From positions 1 through 20,639 of IMG/VR virus record IMGVR_UViG_3300033182_000865: a stretch of 20,639 nucleotides of DNA, one strand, 5' to 3'. Below the pieces are notes generated by a model that was not told the DNA's origin, made no database searches, and saw only the letters and a list, made by a program, of their open reading frames with translations. This document shows positions 9,426-20,390 of this stretch, piece by piece (position 1 is the first letter of the stretch; every line of letters begins with the position of its first letter). Position numbers and translations under genes: made by a program. Source of the DNA: a virus.

Positions 9426-9433
9426 GATAAATA
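9426..9433 (+). promoter_or_regulatory. T4-type late promoter (GATAAATA)
   Basis: GATAAATA followed by C lies in the short gap between the giant fiber stop and the next ATG, 15 bases before the start codon. It differs from TATAAATA only at the first base. A strong ribosome site TAAGGAG (9437-9443) sits between it and the ATG at 9449, so the leader would be very short. Confidence 0.75.
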
Positions 9434-10193: not shown

Positions 10194-10201
10194 AATAAAT
10201 A
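10194..10201 (+). promoter_or_regulatory. T4-type late promoter (AATAAATA)
   Basis: AATAAATA followed by C lies in the 57-base gap after the stop at 10183, 39 bases before the ATG at 10241. It differs from the consensus TATAAATA only at the first base. GGAG at 10227-10230 is the ribosome site of the following gene. Confidence 0.7.
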
Positions 10202-10240: not shown

Positions 10241-12520
10241 ATGGCATTCAAACTAAGACGTGGCACAGATGCAGAACGCCAAAACATAACACCAGCAGAA
10301 GGCGAACTAATCTATACTACAGATAATAAACAAATATTTGTAGGTGATGGTACAACAGCAGGTGGTAACCCAGCATCAGGCGGTGGTGTAGTAGCAGGTT
10401 TAAGTATTCCAGCAGGAGATCCTTTCTACACAGAAGCACAAGCAAATCCAAATGATCCTTTCCTAGATGGAGATTTACATCTAAGAGGAAACGATATTAT
10501 TGGAACAGGTAATATTAACATTGACGGCACTATAACTGCTACAGGTAATATCAACATAGGTGATGGCGGTGACAGTGTAACAATTAACGGTTCAATTGCT
10601 TCTAATTTAACTCCAGAATTAGGAACAGGCGCAGACGGTGTTTCATCTTACACCATTGGTAGTGATCCAACTGACTCCGGTATTGCTTGGGGCGAACTTT
10701 GGGTTGGCAACATTTATGCTGGTCCTACTACATTATCAGGCAACATTGCTTTTGATCCTGCGGTTGCTGGCATAGGTTTACAAGGCGATGTTTACGACAC
10801 TTCTGGAGGTAATAGATTATGGAATGCTACTACCAGTCAAGCAGACGGCGAATTAATTTTTGGTAATCTTACTAATGCTACTGTAACAGGAGCAATTAAT
10901 ACAGGAACTGCGGCTACTTTCAACGGTGGACTCACAGCAAGTACAATTGAATGTGATACTGTATACGGTAACGATGGCACAACAGTAATTATTGACGCAG
11001 ATGTTACAGCAAACGTAGACGGCGTGGCAGTATTCTTTGGTGAGTTCCAAGGTATACATCAAGGTGATACAGAAGGTGATGTTTACACAGCAGACGGTAG
11101 TACTGTAATTCTTGACTCAACAGCAAATACTATAACTACTACGGCTGTCGATACTGGCACAATGGATGCCACTGGTAATGCTACAGTAGGTGGTACATTA
11201 GGTGTAACTGGCAACCAAACTAACACTGGCAACTTAACAGTTGGTGGTACATTTGGCGTAACTGGTGATTTAACGGCATCGAGTAATGCTTCAGTAGGTG
11301 GAGATGCTACTATTACAGGTAATACTACTGTTACAGGAACACTAGGTGTAACTGGCGATACTACAGTAGGTAACTTGAGTATCACAGGAAACTTAACAGC
11401 AATTGGTACTATCGCAGCAACTACAGCAACTACACTAGAAACTGCGAGAACAATTAACGGTGTATCATTTGATGGTAGTGCTAACATTACTATTGAAGAT
11501 AATTCAAAACTACCAACAAGTGGTTTGGTTCCAATGTTAGGTGATTTAACACTAGCACAAGATCCTACTAGTCCGCTACACGCAGTTACAAAACAATATG
11601 TAGATAATAACTTCCACGAAATTACAACAAACACAACTATTAGTGCTACACAAACAACTTACACTGGCGCAATACTTTGTTCAGACTTACAAGAAGAAAC
11701 TACAGGCGGCGGCTTAGGCATAAGTTCAGTTAACGGTACTATTGCTCTTAACGCAGGTCTTGCTGGATCTGTAAGTTTACAAAACTTGTCAAGTGGACCG
11801 GTTGTATTAAGTGGTGTTGAAATTGTAGGCACTAGTATTGCTACTACAGACAGTAGTTCGCTTTCAGTAGATAATGTTACTAACTTCTTAAGTGATGTTA
11901 TTGTTGACGGTAACATTACAGCAGCAAGAATTGATGCTGAAATAATTGAAACTTCAGGTGCTGGTATTCCAAGACTTGAATCAGACACAAACATTGAAGT
12001 AAGTATTCCAACAGGAAGATTAAATATTATTGACGGATTGCTTAACTTCTCGTTGTACACACTAGCAGACTTAGGTACAGACTTTACCGGTACAAACGGT
12101 GACATAGCATTTGTTGAAGATTCAACACTCCCACAACCACACGTTTATACTTCAGGCAATTGGATGCCAATGTTAAGTCCAACTATTGGATGGGTATTAG
12201 GTAATGACGGTACAAACACAGCATTTACATTTACTGGTCCTGGTTTTGTTTCAGCAACAAGTGATCCAGCATTAACATTGTATAGAGGTCATACTTATGT
12301 ATTTAATAACACTGCTAACGGAGCAAGTCATCCTATAGCATTCCAAACTACTGATCCAGGTGCAGTAGGTTACGATTCCGGTAACCTTTACACAACTGGT
12401 ACTAGTGGTAATAATCAAGGTGTTCTTGTTTGGGTTATTCCAATGGACGCACCTAGTACACTTTACTATGCTTGTGAAGTACACGGCGGAACAATGAACG
12501 GCACAATTACAATCGCGTAA
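10241..12520 (+). CDS. tail fiber with Mtd-like N-terminus and cupredoxin-like C-terminal domain (759 aa)
   Basis: Residues 3-40 (KLRRGTDAERQNITPAEGEL, then YTTDNKQIFVGDG) match the N-terminal segment of phage fibers related to the Major tropism determinant, likely the virion-attachment end. Residues ~305-390 are a run of short beta repeats around GTLGVTG/TVGG/ITGNLT, the fibrous shaft. ARTINGVSFDGSANITI and HAVTKQYVDN near 405-460 are standard fiber motifs. The last ~100 residues look like a cupredoxin fold: LTLYRGHTYVFNN, then SHPIAF with His697, and YYACEVHGGTMNG with Cys745, His748 and Met752, the order and approximate spacing of type-1 copper ligands. Related C-terminal domains occur in other marine phage structural proteins, with no function I know to be proven. 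Ends 10 bases before the protease gene, with which it shares a transcript. Confidence 0.87.
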   Translation: MAFKLRRGTDAERQNITPAEGELIYTTDNKQIFVGDGTTAGGNPASGGGVVAGLSIPAGDPFYTEAQANPNDPFLDGDLHLRGNDIIGTGNINIDGTITATGNINIGDGGDSVTINGSIASNLTPELGTGADGVSSYTIGSDPTDSGIAWGELWVGNIYAGPTTLSGNIAFDPAVAGIGLQGDVYDTSGGNRLWNATTSQADGELIFGNLTNATVTGAINTGTAATFNGGLTASTIECDTVYGNDGTTVIIDADVTANVDGVAVFFGEFQGIHQGDTEGDVYTADGSTVILDSTANTITTTAVDTGTMDATGNATVGGTLGVTGNQTNTGNLTVGGTFGVTGDLTASSNASVGGDATITGNTTVTGTLGVTGDTTVGNLSITGNLTAIGTIAATTATTLETARTINGVSFDGSANITIEDNSKLPTSGLVPMLGDLTLAQDPTSPLHAVTKQYVDNNFHEITTNTTISATQTTYTGAILCSDLQEETTGGGLGISSVNGTIALNAGLAGSVSLQNLSSGPVVLSGVEIVGTSIATTDSSSLSVDNVTNFLSDVIVDGNITAARIDAEIIETSGAGIPRLESDTNIEVSIPTGRLNIIDGLLNFSLYTLADLGTDFTGTNGDIAFVEDSTLPQPHVYTSGNWMPMLSPTIGWVLGNDGTNTAFTFTGPGFVSATSDPALTLYRGHTYVFNNTANGASHPIAFQTTDPGAVGYDSGNLYTTGTSGNNQGVLVWVIPMDAPSTLYYACEVHGGTMNGTITIA
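11160..11410 (+). repeat. degenerate beta-strand repeats in the fiber shaft
   Basis: Several imperfect copies of a unit coding roughly VGGTLGVTGNxTxTGNLT occur, for example around 11184-11212, 11235-11268 and 11331-11365, sharing DNA such as GGTGTAACTGGC or GGCGTAACTGGT. Such arrays grow and shrink by recombination and set shaft length in phage fibers. Confidence 0.65.
12220..12520 (+). other. cupredoxin-like domain region of the 759-aa fiber
   Basis: This segment codes for the C-terminal ~100 residues holding His697 (codon at 12329), Cys745 (12473), His748 (12482) and Met752 (12494). The Cys-x2-His-x3-Met spacing and distant upstream His fit a type-1 copper centre. The fold call is by pattern only, and copper binding is not shown. 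Confidence 0.6.
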
Positions 12521-12530
12521 GGTTTAAACA

Positions 12531-14141
12531 ATGGCTGAAAAAGAATATATTGTAACACTAAAAGCAGGGGTTGACTACGAAGCGTTTAACGCAGAAATGA
12601 TTGCTACAACAGGCGATGGAGATATTCCAGGTCGTTCAGTTGATGTAGCAAACGCTCGTCCAGGCTCAAAACGTAATACACACTATTCACTAACAGATGA
12701 AGAAGCAGCAACTCTACGTAATGACAGCAGAGTTGATGACGTACAAATTCCTCCACAAGACAGAGACGACATTGAAATTGGTCACTGGGCAACGCAGTCA
12801 GGCGGGTTGATGGATAGAACTGGATCGACTATAACTAATCAAAGAGTTAATTGGGGCTTATTACGTTGTGATAGAGAAATTAATCCTTATACAAGTACAA
12901 GTGCGCCTGCGGGACTAAATCACGATTATAGTTTAGATGGCACCGGTGTAGATGTTGTTATACAAGACTCAGGATTAGATTATACTCACCCAGAATTTAC
13001 AGACGCACAAGGAAACAGTCGAGTACAATTAATTGACTGGTACCAAGAAAGTGGAATAGCAGGAACACAAAATGCTAACCACTATAGAGATTATGACGGA
13101 CATGGAACACACTGCGCAGGTATTGCCGCAGGTAAAAACTATGGCTGGGCAAAAAATGCTAGAATTTATTCAGTTAAAGTAAATGGCTTAGAAGGTTCGG
13201 GTGATACTGGTACAGGCATTTCAATAACTGATTGCTTTGATGTTATTAAACTATGGCACAGAAACAAAGATGTAGATCCTAAAACAGGTAAAAAGCGTCC
13301 TACTATTGTAAACATGAGTTGGGGATACGGTAATTATTTTACTGATATTACAGGAGGCAACTACAGAGGAACTCCTTGGACTGGAACTAGCAGAGATACA
13401 TCAAAAGGTATGGTCGGAGTGTATACAGGATTAAGTGGTTATCGACACGTTGTACGTGTAGCATCTGTTGATGCTGATATTGAAGAACTTATTGATGAAG
13501 GTGTACACGTTTGTATTGCCGCAGGTAACTCATATCAAAAGATTGACGTTCTTGGCGGTGTTGACTACGATAACTATTATACAAAATCTTCAGGAACTTC
13601 TTATTATTACCATCGCGGAGGATCTCCGTTTAGTGCAAGAGCTATGATAGTTGGTAACATTGATGATAATGTAGCTGGCGGCGAGATTAGAGCAACATCA
13701 AGTGAACACGGACCTGGTGTTAATATAAACGCACCTGGTACAGGCATTATGAGTACGTGTTCTACTACAAATAGATTTAGTAGTGTGGAACAACCGTATC
13801 CACTAAACACTTCTTATAAATGTATGAGTATTTCAGGCACTTCAATGGCATCTCCACAAGTATGCGGGTTAGGTGCTTTATACTTGCAAGCCAATCCAGA
13901 AGCAACTCCGCAACAACTACAAGATTGGTTTATTAACAACGCTCAAACTAATCAACTTAATGACACTGGGTTAGATAACGATTATACTAATGCTACTAGT
14001 TTACTAGGTGGACCAAATAGATACTTGTTCAATCCTTTTAATAAGGCTAAAAGAGATGTAGCAAAAGGACCATTAAGAGTTATTAACGGTGGCGGAATTA
14101 CTTTTAGAGGCGGCAAAAACCCAACTACTGATCCTGCGTAG
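12531..14141 (+). CDS. subtilisin-family (S8) serine protease, virion-associated or maturation type (536 aa)
   Basis: The three catalytic blocks of subtilases are present in order: Asp146 in VVIQDSGLDYTHPEF, His191 in GHGTHCAGIAAG and Ser438 in SGTSMASPQ. Asn333 in IAAGNS fits the oxyanion-hole residue, and NMSWG (near 13308) the substrate-binding strand. The first ~75 residues (EYIVTLKAGVDYEAF to VDDVQIPPQ) resemble the I9-type propeptide that folds and inhibits subtilases, so self-cleavage near residue 80-110 is plausible. No signal peptide is seen, unlike most secreted bacterial subtilases, consistent with release by lysis or packing into the virion. It has only TAAGG (12518-12522) upstream and no late promoter of its own, so it is read with the cupredoxin fiber. 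Possible roles are cleaving fiber precursors or host surface proteins. Family very confident; role inferred. Confidence 0.92.
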   Translation: MAEKEYIVTLKAGVDYEAFNAEMIATTGDGDIPGRSVDVANARPGSKRNTHYSLTDEEAATLRNDSRVDDVQIPPQDRDDIEIGHWATQSGGLMDRTGSTITNQRVNWGLLRCDREINPYTSTSAPAGLNHDYSLDGTGVDVVIQDSGLDYTHPEFTDAQGNSRVQLIDWYQESGIAGTQNANHYRDYDGHGTHCAGIAAGKNYGWAKNARIYSVKVNGLEGSGDTGTGISITDCFDVIKLWHRNKDVDPKTGKKRPTIVNMSWGYGNYFTDITGGNYRGTPWTGTSRDTSKGMVGVYTGLSGYRHVVRVASVDADIEELIDEGVHVCIAAGNSYQKIDVLGGVDYDNYYTKSSGTSYYYHRGGSPFSARAMIVGNIDDNVAGGEIRATSSEHGPGVNINAPGTGIMSTCSTTNRFSSVEQPYPLNTSYKCMSISGTSMASPQVCGLGALYLQANPEATPQQLQDWFINNAQTNQLNDTGLDNDYTNATSLLGGPNRYLFNPFNKAKRDVAKGPLRVINGGGITFRGGKNPTTDPA

Positions 14142-14145
14142 TTTC

Positions 14146-14153
14146 GATAAATA
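14146..14153 (+). promoter_or_regulatory. T4-type late promoter (GATAAATA)
   Basis: GATAAATA followed by C starts 5 bases after the protease stop and lies 19 bases before the ATG at 14173. It matches the one before 9449 exactly. The ribosome site AAAGGTAGG (14159-14167) follows directly. Confidence 0.75.
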
Positions 14154-14172: not shown

Positions 14173-17100
14173 ATGGCAACAAGCGTTTGGAAGCAACAAT
14201 CTAACTATAATCTCGGAACAGTACTTTTAGGAGCAGATTACGATATCACAGCATCTTATGTTATTAATGATGTTGTAACTTTCAACGGAAAGACTTATCG
14301 TGCTATCAAAGATAATCCTGCTGTTAACGGTTCAAATATATTACCGCGAAATACTTCTTACTGGGAGGAGTTTGATCCAGAAATATCAGAAGGTGAAACA
14401 TTTGATATTCTACTTCCTATAAACTTAGGTGCTGCAACAAGCATCATACAAACAGATCAATTCACCGGTTCATCAACATTTACAGACTTTGATGATCAAC
14501 AGTTTTATGTTTCGTCAGGTGGGTTGCCGGAACATGCTTATGGTCCATATCCTAATAATAAAAATAGTTTCCCTGCTCGTGTACAAGATTACTTGTTTAC
14601 GATGCCAAGATTCCCTACAACTCCATCTGTAAAAGTAGCCTTGCCAACTGGCTCTGTTGCTGTTGCTACAAATGGTGTACCTATTTACAACCATGCTTTA
14701 GATGATGTAGATGTTCTAGAAGGTGTTGAGTACACTAAAATAAGTCAAGTGTTTATTGAAAATGGCGCTAGTGTACAAGATGGATCCGGCCCTCCAAGTT
14801 CAATTGGCGATTATCATTATAGACAAGATCCTTTAAAACTTTATCTTAAACCAGTATTATATAAAGGAGAGTACGATAATACTCGCAATTATGAAATTGA
14901 TGAAATTGTTTGGCAAAACGGTACTGTATATATTGCTAACTTAGAAAATCCTGGAAGTTTAATTGTTAATGATCACAGAGCAGTTGTTCAAACAAGAACT
15001 ACTAAAATTGGTTTTATTCTTGATGAAACTTCTCCAAGTTTTACCGTAGGAACTAGAGGCGGGGATATAGAAGTTGATATTAATCCTAACTATAGTTACA
15101 ATGTAGTTAATCGTAGTAATCAAACAATTCAAACACTGCTAGAACAAGATTGGACAACTTACGTAACTGGAGTATCTCATAGTCCTATTATAGGTTATGC
15201 GTATGATGGTTATCCTATTTACGGAAGTATTGGTTATGCTGATCCAATGGATTCTGCTAGTTCTTTAGAGTTTATGACGTCTAGTTATAAAGTCAGAGAC
15301 GACTTGCGTCAAGACGGAAGCACACCAGATGGTTCATACGAAGAAGATTGGGTTTACGAACAAGGTCTAGGAACTTTAGATCAATACAATGGACGTTATT
15401 GTGTTACACCTGAATACCCTACAGGAACTTATGCTTACTTTTCAAGTTGTGAAAAAGAAAATCCATTAACAAGTACATATCCATATCTATTAGCAAAACA
15501 ATATTATGGACAACCTGTGTTACCAAATGGCCTAGGAGAAAAGACCGGACTTAACGATATCAACTTTAGTGTTATTAGTGGTGAGTTACCAGCAGGATTG
15601 CGTGTTGAAAGATTAAGACTTAAAGGAACTCCGTTAGAAGTTTCTAACACAACAGAATACAATTTTGTTATTAGAGCAACATACGCTAATGGTACTAAAA
15701 TTGAAGATAGAACATTTAAGTTATTAGTTGAAGGACCAGATGAACCTGAGTGGCTTACACCAGAAGGGGATCTACCTATAGGTCCAAATAATACGTATTA
15801 CGTATTAGATGGAGATTATGTTGACTTTAACTTACTAGCAGAAGATATTGATTTACCAGAAGGCAAGACTTTAGAATTCTTTATTGAAGATGAAAGCGGA
15901 GAATTACCTCCTGGACTAACACTAACTAAAGAAGGACGTATATACGGATTTACAGAACCAGTCATTCCTTTAAGTGCTGCCGCAGTTAAAGGTGGCGGAT
16001 ACGATTTTGATCGTTACGACTTTAGTCCTTATGATTATGCTATTAAATCACAAAGTGGTTATGATAGTTTCTTATATGATAGTGTAGGTTATGATGAATT
16101 TGATCCGACACGTTCACCTAAGAAGGCAAATCGTTATTATGAATTTATTGTTAGTATTAATGACGGTACTGACATTGCTAAACGTAAATTTAAAATATTT
16201 GTAGTAGGCGATGACGCTGCTAGAGCAGACAACGTAAGTACTAAATCATCACAAGACTTATTTACAGCAGACATGACGTTTGTTCGTAAGCCAATCTTTA
16301 TTACACCTAGTAACCTTGGCGTTAAACGTGCTGGTTCATTTATTACATTAATAATTGATATATTTGATCCTAACACAATCATAGGTCCAATTGATTATGC
16401 GTTGGAACCAGTAAACTTAGACGGAACACCTAGTGTATTACCTGAAGGTTTATCATTAGATATCATTACTGGAGAAATTGCTGGTAAGTATCCATATCAA
16501 CCTCAAGTAACTAGAGATTTTAATTTTACAATTAAAGCAACACGTTATAACGCAAGTGTAGGCGATAGAGAAGTAATATACGGATATCTTGCTAAAGCAT
16601 TTGAAGCCGGTGATAGCGATATATTTGTAAAAAGTTTATCAGACGCAGATGCTCAAAACATTGTTGACGCAACTATATTTGACCCTGTTAGTGGAAAGAA
16701 TGTTCCTGTAATTTCTGTTACAGAAGTAGACGCAGGCTCATATACTGGTTGGTTTGATAATGACGAAACATATACTAGAATATCATTTAAAACTTCTTTA
16801 CAATTTAGTAGCACTAGTAATACACAAGTATTTGGTTTTGAAACTACTATTACAGCATTAGACGACGATGAATACATTTCAGAACGTAAACAATTTAGTC
16901 TTAGAATTCAAGGTGCTGCTGATGGCGCAATTACTTGGATTACACCAGAAGACCTTGGAGAAATTACTGCTAACTCTATTAGTACATTAAAACTTGAAGC
17001 AGAAAGTACATTCCCAGGAACAACTGTTGTTTACAAACTTGTTGACGGACAATTACCAAACGGATTAACACTTATTGAAGATGGTGAAATTATTGGTAAG

Positions 17101-18153
17101 GTTAGACAGTTCAGTTCTAAAGATAAACCGGGTATTAGTATTTTTGATAACGGTTACTTAACATTTGATGGCGGTACAACTACATTTGACAGACGTTATA
17201 CATTTACTGTAGAAGCAAAAGACGGCTTTACTATTAATGCTCTTACTAGAACATTTACAGTATTTGTAAGTCCGTTGAAAGATAGAGCATATAGTAATGT
17301 TGAAATTAAACCGTTCTTAAAAACAGATGTCAAAACATCATGGCTATCATTTATTAATAACAGTAACATATTCAGTTCAGATTTAATTTATAGAGCATAC
17401 GATGAAAACTTTGGTGTACAAAAAGATCTTAAGTCGTTGATATTTGCTGGACTAGAAGCAAGACCATATTCAGCCTTTGCGTCAGCAGTAGCATACGCAC
17501 ACAAGCCTCGCAGTTTACGTATAGGCGGAATAAAGACAGCAACAGCACGTTCATTAGGAGTCGACGATGTGCGTTACGAAGTTGTTTACTTTGAGTTATT
17601 AGATCCAAATGAAAAACGTGGCGAAGATACTGAAGATATTATTTCACCTAATGAAATCTTTACACTAGATAATCAAAATGTTATTACAGCAGACCAAACA
17701 AATACTGATCTTGCTAAAGGTCCTTTAACAAGTGACAATGTAACATTAAACGAAGACGATCCGTATTTCTTTAGACCAGATGGTTCTGTGATAACTGTTG
17801 ATAGTGACATTAATCCTAATGACAACGCTCAACTACATATTAGTACTATTACAAATATGCGTAAACGTTTATTAGATATTGGTGAAGTTGATAATGACTT
17901 CTTGCCATTATGGATGAGAACAAGACAAGATGACACTGGTAGACAGCCCGGATATGTTAGAGCAATTCCTATAGCATACTGTAAGCCTGGCAGGTCAAAA
18001 GAATTATTACTTAAAATTAATAACCATTTAGAAGAAACAGGTTATAGTTTTACTGAAATCGATTATTACGTTGATAGATACTTAATTGATGCTACCCTTG
18101 GTAATAGTAACCCGCAATTCATTGTGTGGCCTAGAAACAATCTATCAATATAA
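14173..18153 (+). CDS. YHYH-domain structural protein with Ig-like repeats (1326 aa)
   Basis: Residues 28-68 (YVINDVVTFNGKTYRAI to SYWEEFDP) and 234-256 (YDNTRNYEIDEIVWQNG, VYIAN) resemble carbohydrate-binding module 5/12 patterns. Residues ~165-445 match the YHYH family: GVPIYNHA, YHYR (214-217), HSPIIGYAYDGYPIYG (336-351), LDQYNGRYCVTPEYPTGTY and YPYLLAKQYYG. The signature reads YHYR rather than YHYH, and about 118 residues separate it from the HSPIIGYA block. Four putative Ig (He_PIG-like) cores follow: ELPAGLRV (471), ELPPGLTL (577), LPEGLSL (756) and LPNGLTL (961). Residues 609-645 are rich in Tyr-Asp. The last ~100 residues, with LPLWMRTRQ and YCKPG, recall a terminal domain in marine T4-like structural proteins. 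It is likely a fiber or baseplate-associated adhesin binding glycans or metal. Its TAA lies inside the next late promoter. Confidence 0.85.
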   Translation: MATSVWKQQSNYNLGTVLLGADYDITASYVINDVVTFNGKTYRAIKDNPAVNGSNILPRNTSYWEEFDPEISEGETFDILLPINLGAATSIIQTDQFTGSSTFTDFDDQQFYVSSGGLPEHAYGPYPNNKNSFPARVQDYLFTMPRFPTTPSVKVALPTGSVAVATNGVPIYNHALDDVDVLEGVEYTKISQVFIENGASVQDGSGPPSSIGDYHYRQDPLKLYLKPVLYKGEYDNTRNYEIDEIVWQNGTVYIANLENPGSLIVNDHRAVVQTRTTKIGFILDETSPSFTVGTRGGDIEVDINPNYSYNVVNRSNQTIQTLLEQDWTTYVTGVSHSPIIGYAYDGYPIYGSIGYADPMDSASSLEFMTSSYKVRDDLRQDGSTPDGSYEEDWVYEQGLGTLDQYNGRYCVTPEYPTGTYAYFSSCEKENPLTSTYPYLLAKQYYGQPVLPNGLGEKTGLNDINFSVISGELPAGLRVERLRLKGTPLEVSNTTEYNFVIRATYANGTKIEDRTFKLLVEGPDEPEWLTPEGDLPIGPNNTYYVLDGDYVDFNLLAEDIDLPEGKTLEFFIEDESGELPPGLTLTKEGRIYGFTEPVIPLSAAAVKGGGYDFDRYDFSPYDYAIKSQSGYDSFLYDSVGYDEFDPTRSPKKANRYYEFIVSINDGTDIAKRKFKIFVVGDDAARADNVSTKSSQDLFTADMTFVRKPIFITPSNLGVKRAGSFITLIIDIFDPNTIIGPIDYALEPVNLDGTPSVLPEGLSLDIITGEIAGKYPYQPQVTRDFNFTIKATRYNASVGDREVIYGYLAKAFEAGDSDIFVKSLSDADAQNIVDATIFDPVSGKNVPVISVTEVDAGSYTGWFDNDETYTRISFKTSLQFSSTSNTQVFGFETTITALDDDEYISERKQFSLRIQGAADGAITWITPEDLGEITANSISTLKLEAESTFPGTTVVYKLVDGQLPNGLTLIEDGEIIGKVRQFSSKDKPGISIFDNGYLTFDGGTTTFDRRYTFTVEAKDGFTINALTRTFTVFVSPLKDRAYSNVEIKPFLKTDVKTSWLSFINNSNIFSSDLIYRAYDENFGVQKDLKSLIFAGLEARPYSAFASAVAYAHKPRSLRIGGIKTATARSLGVDDVRYEVVYFELLDPNEKRGEDTEDIISPNEIFTLDNQNVITADQTNTDLAKGPLTSDNVTLNEDDPYFFRPDGSVITVDSDINPNDNAQLHISTITNMRKRLLDIGEVDNDFLPLWMRTRQDDTGRQPGYVRAIPIAYCKPGRSKELLLKINNHLEETGYSFTEIDYYVDRYLIDATLGNSNPQFIVWPRNNLSI

Positions 18154-18156
18154 ATA
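18149..18156 (+). promoter_or_regulatory. perfect T4-type late promoter TATAAATA overlapping a stop codon
   Basis: This is the exact consensus TATAAATA followed by C. The TAA stop of the preceding gene (18151-18153) is part of the octamer. It is 17 bases before the GTG start at 18174, with CTGGAG (18160-18165) between them. Confidence 0.85.
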
Positions 18157-19009: not shown

Positions 19010-19567
19010 ATGCTTATGAAAACAGACGAACTAGGTATACCCCGCTTCTCTAACCGCGACCTTATAGATATGATCTATAGTGGTCATGCGGATAAAGTTC
19101 ATGTGGTATTATGTGACGAAAATGACGATGTAGACAAGTTCAATACCGCAATGGAAGAACAAGGTATGTCACCATTACAAAAATATATTCCATTAGATGT
19201 AGATCAAAAGACTTTTGATGGTGTATGTCAAGGTGAATGGTTTATGCCTGAAAAATACAAGAATATAGATGTACGCTCTATAGTATTATCTAAACTACAT
19301 CAAGTAGAAGGCTTTAAAAGTAGAGCGGCGGCACAAGCCAGTAAAAACTGGTATCGTTGTATGGAAGAACTAGACGAGTATGAAGTACGAGGTATGTTAC
19401 CATTACTTCAGTATATGATATATCTAGTAGATTTTATGCGTGAAAATAATATTGTATGGGGTGTAGGACGCGGATCAAGTGTTGCTAGTTATGTGTTATA
19501 TTTAATAGGTGTACACCGCATTAACTCAATCCAGTTTGACCTAGACTGGAGAGAGTTCTTAAGATAA
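19010..19567 (+). CDS. stand-alone DnaE-like (DNA polymerase III alpha) fragment (185 aa)
   Basis: Residues 121-185 (DEYEVRGMLPLLQYMIYLVD, then WGVGRGSSVASYVLYLIGV and FDLDWREFLR) match the bacterial replicase alpha subunit where PHP meets palm, including the GRGS-x-x-S loop (153-156) that helps bind incoming nucleotide. In full-length DnaE this block is soon followed by N-P-E-R and the DxD catalytic aspartates; here the protein stops at REFLR. Residues 1-120 are less clear (TDELGIPRFSNRDLIDMIYS). It therefore cannot be a polymerase alone. It might bind nucleotide or the host replicase, or be a conserved remnant. No good ribosome site is seen before ATG 19010, and a second ATG at 19016 is possible. 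Its place between virion genes and the chaperonin gene gives no clue to its role. Confidence 0.75.
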   Translation: MLMKTDELGIPRFSNRDLIDMIYSGHADKVHVVLCDENDDVDKFNTAMEEQGMSPLQKYIPLDVDQKTFDGVCQGEWFMPEKYKNIDVRSIVLSKLHQVEGFKSRAAAQASKNWYRCMEELDEYEVRGMLPLLQYMIYLVDFMRENNIVWGVGRGSSVASYVLYLIGVHRINSIQFDLDWREFLR

Positions 19568-19593: not shown

Positions 19594-19992
19594 ATGGTAC
19601 AAAAAGCTCAAGCAAAAAGACAATACAGATCAGCAAACGGTAAGGTTGTTGATATGGACTTGTTACGTCAGCGTAACGAATTAACTCCTGCTGTAGGCAA
19701 TGCTCGTGTTAATGCACGCGGAGACGAATTAGGCCCAGGTGGCAAGATTATTCGTAAACGTGAAGATGTATTAAAAGATTATTACGAAACAAAACAAGCA
19801 AGAGTACAAGACGAAGTAATTACAAGTCGTAACACTGTACAAGACGAAGTAGTTGAAACAAAGAAAACAACTTCCAAAAAGAAAGCAGCACCTAAAGTTG
19901 ATGAACCAGTTGAGTCAGTAGATGATGCTGGCGCAGCATCTGGTGATTGGGTTGAAGACGAAGAAGGCAATTTTGTAAAGAAAGGTGAATAA
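19594..19992 (+). CDS. conserved phage protein, highly charged (132 aa)
   Basis: Residues 1-60 are basic and apparently ordered (AKRQYRSANGKVVDMDLLRQ, RNELTPAVGNARVNARGDEL, GPGGKI), a stretch I recall in marine T4-like phage genomes without an assigned role. Residues 60-132 are disordered-looking: DEV repeats (VQDEVITSRNTVQDEVVETK), a Lys-rich run (KKTTSKKKAAPK), then an acidic tail ending in GDWVEDEEGNFVKKGE. The basic-then-acidic layout suggests an internal head, scaffold-like or nucleic-acid-contacting protein, but this is inference. Its TAA overlaps the ATG of the next gene by one base (TAATG), implying coupled translation. Confidence 0.75.
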   Translation: MVQKAQAKRQYRSANGKVVDMDLLRQRNELTPAVGNARVNARGDELGPGGKIIRKREDVLKDYYETKQARVQDEVITSRNTVQDEVVETKKTTSKKKAAPKVDEPVESVDDAGAASGDWVEDEEGNFVKKGE

Positions 19993-20390
19993 TGGCGAAT
20001 CTTAATGCTATAAACGGAATCCCCCGTGCGATTGGAAATCGTGTATTAGTTACTGATATGTACTTTGGTGAACAAACTACTAAAAGCGGTTTGGTCATTA
20101 GTAACGATGACGGTAAGACTCGGGGCATTTATCCGCGTTGGTGTAAAGTTTATTCAAAAGGTCCTCGTAACACAGATCCGTACAACATAGGTGATTGGAT
20201 TCTTGTAGAACACGGTCGTTGGACTCGCGGTATGCTTATCAACGACGGGAATGAAGAAAAAGAATTTCGAATGGTTGAAACTGAAAGTATCTTGGCATAC
20301 TCAGATGAAAAACCAGAAGATACATTAACACTAGGACAAGAATATTCAGACGGTCCAGTAGAATTTGCACCAGAACATTTTATGGGGTAA
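19992..20390 (+). CDS. GroES-like co-chaperonin (132 aa)
   Basis: The order of motifs fits the Cpn10 fold. IPRAIGNRVLVTDMYFGEQT (10-29) corresponds to the family's P-x-x-DRVLV strand; TKSGLVISNDDGKTRGIYPR (30-49) to the mobile loop that docks on GroEL; KVYSKGP (52-58) to the V-x-AVG-x-G turn; YNIGDWILVEHG (64-75) to V-x-x-GD-x-VL; and FRMVETESILAYSDE (92-106) to the closing strand with ILA. About 25 extra residues trail after it. T4-like phages use such proteins (gp31, CocO) to make host GroEL fold the major capsid protein, so the same role is likely. It starts by one-base overlap with the previous gene and ends two bases before the next. Confidence 0.85.
   Translation: MANLNAINGIPRAIGNRVLVTDMYFGEQTTKSGLVISNDDGKTRGIYPRWCKVYSKGPRNTDPYNIGDWILVEHGRWTRGMLINDGNEEKEFRMVETESILAYSDEKPEDTLTLGQEYSDGPVEFAPEHFMG

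Follow-up and report, generated by a model that had tools for sequence, protein, structure and literature searches.

The window analysed here, an entire virus record of 20,639 bases from IMG/VR, encodes a complete subtilisin-like (S8) protease directly behind a tail-fibre gene. The protein is best read as an accessory, virion-borne subtilase that activates itself and acts outside the cell, probably on a host-surface protein at adsorption; a rough probability of 0.55 is given to this reading. Support comes from invariant catalytic residues, a prodomain fold, a fibre operon of late type, the optional presence of the gene, fusions in relatives and a virion label on one of them. The protease would be expressed late together with the tail fibre, fold in the cytoplasm with the aid of its own I9-type prodomain, and, in the case of the window copy, presumably become part of the tail fibres or the baseplate of the particle. 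Self-cleavage would then free the protease from the prodomain. On the released particle the enzyme would cut an extracellular protein, most likely one on the host surface or close to it while the phage adsorbs, and a host-surface protein cut at entry would be the most economical choice of substrate.

The gene, its predicted domains and its active-site codons are located as follows.
12531..14141, + strand: S8 subtilase gene (PHROG 9158), 536 aa, ATG start; complete open reading frame with Pfam and PHROG matches
12531..12782, + strand: predicted I9-like prodomain, residues 1-84, from the model fold and matches to pro-enzymes
12783..12851, + strand: linker, residues 85-107, of low pLDDT in the model; probable activation (autoprocessing) region
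12852..14042, + strand: proteinase-K-like catalytic domain, residues 108-504, from Pfam, the model and structural matches
12966..12968, + strand: codon of catalytic Asp146, invariant in 96/96 rows
13101..13103, + strand: codon of catalytic His191, invariant in 96/96 rows
13527..13529, + strand: codon of oxyanion Asn333, invariant in 96/96 rows
13842..13844, + strand: codon of catalytic Ser438, invariant in 95/95 rows, one row being truncated

Pfam Peptidase_S8 matched residues 137-485 of the protein (E 6.7e-35), and the profile of PHROG 9158, a family listed with 'unknown function', matched residues 2-501 (E 2.2e-87). The Asp-His-Ser triad and the oxyanion Asn are present in S8 sequence context, which places the protein in this peptidase family. 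The 96 rows of the alignment are the window protein, 89 IMG/VR relatives and six proteins of cultured cyanophages. Catalytic residues were lost in none of them, and the reading as a dead enzyme was rejected because they are kept throughout the family. Simple motif searches initially missed one relative (L024), but its sequence keeps all four residues. The first-pass annotation had described a complete subtilisin-like protease with all catalytic residues, and the exact reading frame and the family-wide conservation of D146, H191, N333 and S438 confirm it. The protein is predicted to be proteolytically active. A PHROG search gave no match of the window protein to prohead proteases of the gp21/phrog_207 type.

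An AlphaFold2 model was built on 54 sequences, the alignment consisting of the window protein and IMG/VR loci only (mean pLDDT 87.9, pTM 0.89). The model has the subtilisin fold: 330 PDB chains were matched at E≤0.001, with a TM (target) of about 0.8 for the top matches, and the best matches were proteinase-K-like enzymes. Long structural matches of 503-537 columns, enough to cover the N-terminus, were unprocessed pro-forms, including unautoprocessed pro-subtilisin E (3whi), ProN-Tk-SP (3afg), fervidolysin (1r6v) and PCSK9. Residues 4-84 are modelled as a compact beta-alpha fold (strands 4-10, 49-54, 68-72 and 82-84; helices 16-23 and 56-62) with pLDDT of 85-97 up to residue 80. The short strand 82-84 closes the N-terminal domain, and pLDDT falls below 50 at residues 89-101; self-cleavage is expected within this low-confidence stretch, which would hold the predicted cleavage site. 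Pfam Inhibitor_I9 had no match in the window protein at E≤0.05, so that the I9 sequence signature is not significant; the N-terminal domain is an I9-type prodomain as judged by the modelled fold only. The propeptide-like N-terminus noticed earlier is borne out by this compact fold ahead of the low-confidence linker and by the long matches to pro-enzymes. No hydrophobic signal peptide was visible by eye at the N-terminus, MAEKEYIVTLKAGVDYEAF, in agreement with the earlier remark that a secretion signal is absent, and the protease would therefore be made in the cytoplasm. Fold matches in BFVD include a protein of S-CAM1 named 'putative proximal tail fiber protein'.

The genes on either side of the protease are the following.
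10241..12520, + strand: upstream tail-fibre gene, 759 aa, with Mtd_N N-terminus and C-terminal cupredoxin-like tip (Pfam/PHROG; PHROG 677)
14173..18153, + strand: downstream virion/baseplate-type protein, 1326 aa, with YHYH and He_PIG domains (Pfam/PHROG)

The position directly behind a tail-fibre gene agrees with the placing of the protease in a fibre cassette. The description of both flanks as adhesins is borne out only in part: the upstream neighbour is a tail-fibre protein, and the downstream YHYH/He_PIG protein has PHROG matches to baseplate-wedge and virion structural proteins. The cupredoxin-like tip of the window fibre (12218-12520) shares His, Cys, His and Met columns with phage plastocyanin and with two enlarged protease relatives (L011 and L056). 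This domain of the tip was not scored by Pfam, and comparison of the tip with solved structures gave nothing significant. Elsewhere in the window, a stand-alone piece of 185 aa with matches to the DNA polymerase III alpha family (19010-19567; Pfam DNA_pol3_alpha, phrog_11127) occupies the same place as in relatives, and a GroES-like/head-morphogenesis ORF (phrog_931, phrog_3188) lies at 19992-20390. An ORF of 125 aa at 55-432 runs on the - strand, against the direction of everything else in the window; it has two Cys-x2-Cys pairs and is a possible zinc-finger protein.

Linkage of the protease to fibre genes is nearly constant across the family. Among 75 non-redundant loci the upstream gene was in view at 72, on the same strand in every case (72/72) and at most 60 nt away in 71; a spacing of 8-9 nt is common. 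The commonest families in this set of upstream neighbours are tail-fibre and tail PHROGs. Three tip types (GDMIYN-type, YDGAW-type and cupredoxin) account for the ends of many of the upstream fibres. Tip motifs were found in 47 of 72 upstream genes versus 7 of 640 others, with patterns that were written after reading those sequences. In cultured phages the protease is similarly preceded by a tail-pin, fibre or hypothetical gene and usually followed by a structural protein. The fibre neighbour is not universal, because in one clade (L005, L007, L009 and L015) the protease overlaps the stop codon of gp20, the portal gene, and is followed by gp21, gp22 and gp23. This portal-linked clade is nested within the family tree, consistent with a derived move. 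Tandem protease pairs were seen in L049 (5822-9542), L041, L228, L231, L236 and L254; the pairs of L049 and L041 follow a gp23-like capsid gene and a fibre-like gene. The first protease of the tandem in L049 and L041 is of a longer, more distant type. In S-TIM54 the protease region is contained in a long ORF near the portal, annotated 'virion structural protein'.

The late promoter of cyanophages has the consensus NATAAATA (PMC2984593). ATAAATA occurs four times in the window, always on the + strand and shortly upstream of a structural gene, three times between genes and once across a stop codon; this is motif evidence only.
9427-9433, + strand: late-promoter-like ATAAATA before the 9449 ORF
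10195..10201, + strand: late-promoter-like ATAAATA ahead of the copper-site fibre, from which a fibre and protease unit is probably transcribed
14147..14153, + strand: late-promoter-like ATAAATA before the YHYH gene; likely starts a separate transcript
18150-18156, + strand: late-promoter-like ATAAATA spanning the stop codon of the YHYH gene, shortly upstream of the 18174 ORF

Four copies are fewer than chance would give (9.2 expected), so the placement of the motif is informative and not its number. A near match, ACTAAATAC, is found shortly before the 426 ORF of the window. Fibre and protease probably form one late unit, because the gap between them is 10 nt and no ATAAATA stands directly before the protease. 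Co-transcription with the copper-site fibre had been claimed, and the short gap, together with the motif before both neighbours of the protease but not before the protease itself, supports it. Among relatives the motif precedes the upstream fibre at 23 of 61 loci and the protease at 6 of 75, against a background of 1% per 60 nt. Scans for sigma-70 promoters and terminators stayed at chance level.

Whether the protease is needed for the fibres was addressed by counting modules with and without it. With the YHYH protein alone as anchor only five loci were reached, and a conserved downstream gene of 197 aa was used for this reason. Of 48 modules anchored on the 197-aa gene, each with at least 7.5 kb upstream, 21 have the protease in its slot and 27 do not. 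Modules free of the protease usually keep fibre-like genes, a protein of about 235 aa and the YHYH gene. When the records with an empty slot were searched with the family profile, 17 of 19 had no copy anywhere and two had a copy elsewhere; the records are fragments, so that absence is not proven for the whole virus. Fibres of protease-free modules can be closely related to fibres that adjoin a protease: one such pair (L232 and L040) is 50% identical over 840 residues, and another (L238, from a protease-free module, and L055) has in common a C-terminal stretch of 92 residues with 72% identity. The protease tree shows at least 12 changes of tip type (shuffled mean 23.4) and 11 changes between proteins above 600 aa and shorter ones. 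The protease therefore tracks 'a fibre' and not one particular tip.

Additional modules in relatives bear on where the enzyme acts. Of 89 relatives, 24 are longer than 600 aa, mostly through added modules; among these enlarged proteins and that of cultured phage S-SCSM1 there are Laminin_G, Calx-beta-like and Copper-bind matches and a weak esterase match, with Laminin_G_3 in the S-SCSM1 fusion at E 1e-25 and Copper-bind in L056 at E 4.5e-7. One of the 24 (L018) owes its length to an internal insertion, not to a C-terminal module. In L011 the protease is joined to cupredoxin-like modules; in the window these sit on two adjacent genes. A further fusion (L114, 7995-10139) joins the protease to a region with weak acetyl-xylan-esterase/BD-FAE matches. 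The S-SCSM1 protease with Laminin_G (ORF228) bears the GenBank note 'virion protein'. The same note is found on RegA, NMNAT, ORF213 and ORF214, and is absent from the terminases and several predicted baseplate genes. The S-SCSM1 paper reports 45 virion proteins detected by MS and names ORF91, ORF213 and ORF214 as detected but not structural (PMC9602691); 48 labels were counted in the GenBank entry (L035-L039). The note most likely records MS detection, because it marks these three ORFs and is missing from the terminases and several baseplate genes. Detection in a CsCl-purified stock may also reflect carry-over, and the labelled homologue is distant from the window protein (about 29% identical). 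A virion location of the protease has fair support, the label on ORF228 being that of a homologue.

Three jobs had been proposed for the enzyme: maturing the giant fibres, trimming tips to change host range, and digesting host surface proteins at entry. An assembly protease, which would mature fibres or baseplate proteins such as the 2997-aa fibre, the neighbouring fibre or the YHYH protein while these are still in the infected cell, would account for the tight linkage to the upstream fibre gene, the common late unit in the window and the position of one clade between portal and prohead protease. The protease gene is, however, optional in otherwise matching modules: the slot is empty in 27 of 48, no copy was found in 17 of 19 records searched, and closely related fibres or tips occur without it. 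Obligatory fibre maturation is therefore disfavoured. The repeated change of tip type on the protease tree and the separate prohead protease kept by the portal-linked clade speak against assembly too, and this explanation is considered unlikely; the evidence supports an accessory particle enzyme over a dedicated maturation protease. Trimming of tips gained no support, since tips change at least 12 times and the order of fibre followed by protease stays. A head-maturation protease would fit the clade between gp20 and gp21 and the two copies after the major capsid gene in L049. A separate gp21-type prohead protease is nevertheless present wherever head genes are visible (L005 and L049), the portal-linked clade lies within the tree as expected of a derived move, and most relatives are in fibre modules, so that this role is very improbable.

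Digestion of a putative substrate among host surface proteins best matches the binding-module fusions and the virion-protein evidence. An enzyme displayed on the particle could instead remove cell debris or proteins of the host envelope once the cell has lysed, keeping progeny from being trapped. The virion-display evidence counts equally for such a release function, and the optional presence of the gene suits an ecological role better than a structural one; this alternative is rated a little below assembly, and sequence alone does not separate entry, release and non-essential fibre trimming. An effector that degrades host proteins in the cytoplasm during infection would explain the lack of a visible signal peptide, but the late structural operon, the relatives with binding modules and a virion-protein label, and a prodomain fold typical of extracellular enzymes leave it as little probable as head maturation. 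For the family as a whole, it is tentatively proposed, at slightly less than even odds, that marine T4-like phages carry an exchangeable, fibre-linked 'protease cassette', self-activating and virion-displayed, in many cases equipped with binding modules, and digesting host surface protein at entry.

A tblastn search with the window protein found 42 phage records, nearly all of T4-like cyanophages and below 60% identity, and the P-SSM2 copy found 47. At least 443 records of Synechococcus phages and cyanophages have a T4-type portal, and about a tenth of that number have the protease (records not de-duplicated). At least 584 viral contigs were confirmed to have a family member by a profile-guided scan. 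No near DNA match to the window as a whole turned up when megablast was run against the phage collection. In the genome contigs searched, the best cellular matches were 26-36% identical, most over the catalytic domain only, and these contigs yielded no close cellular donor.

The known phage enzymes that open the way to the cell act mostly on sugars and peptidoglycan. If the proposed role is true, host surface proteins too may be cut at infection, by a widespread, optional and catalytically conserved protease tied to fibres of abundant marine phages, and the role of marine bacterial protein coats in phage resistance becomes testable. The enzyme would be a protein-cutting counterpart of the tail-spike depolymerases, across hundreds of marine viruses. 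The gene is present in cultured phages P-SSM2, S-RSM4, S-SCSM1 and S-H38, so the substrate question can be addressed at the bench.

The window gene belongs to a family already known, since S8 peptidases have been described in cyanophage P-HM1 and P-HM2 and several cyanophage genes are so named in GenBank; it is functionally uncharacterised, and no study of function was found in the literature on phage virion subtilases. The S8 peptidases of T4-like cyanophages P-HM1 and P-HM2 (T4-GC518; Sullivan et al. 2010) were mentioned as perhaps connected with infecting a particular host (PMC3037559). They were not recovered by tblastn with the window protein or the P-SSM2 copy. PHROG 9158 proteins are annotated 'subtilisin-like serine protease' in S-H38, S-WAM2, S-H9-1 and Sf-FR1, and hypothetical in P-SSM2 (PSSM2_297) and S-RSM4 (S-RSM4_039). 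They are homologous to the window copy over nearly the full length at about 28-37% identity, with the same layout of prodomain and S8 domain and equal catalytic residues, and their genes, too, immediately follow a fibre, tail-pin or hypothetical gene within a structural region. The window differs in the cupredoxin-like tip of its upstream fibre; unlike S-SCSM1 and others, its protease is without C-terminal fusion modules. Proteinase K, aqualysin and subtilisin proenzymes have the fold, the triad and the prodomain in common with the window protease. These enzymes are secreted with a signal peptide, whereas the window protease has no visible one, and its catalytic domain is longer. The T4 gp21 prohead protease is likewise a phage-encoded protease of the late region; no sequence relation to the window protease was found, and the gp21 type and the subtilase co-occur in the head-gene cluster of the portal-linked clade. 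Tail-spike depolymerases are compared only for the way they work, as optional, fibre-linked virion enzymes that would act on the host surface; they cut polysaccharide, whereas the window enzyme is a predicted protease.
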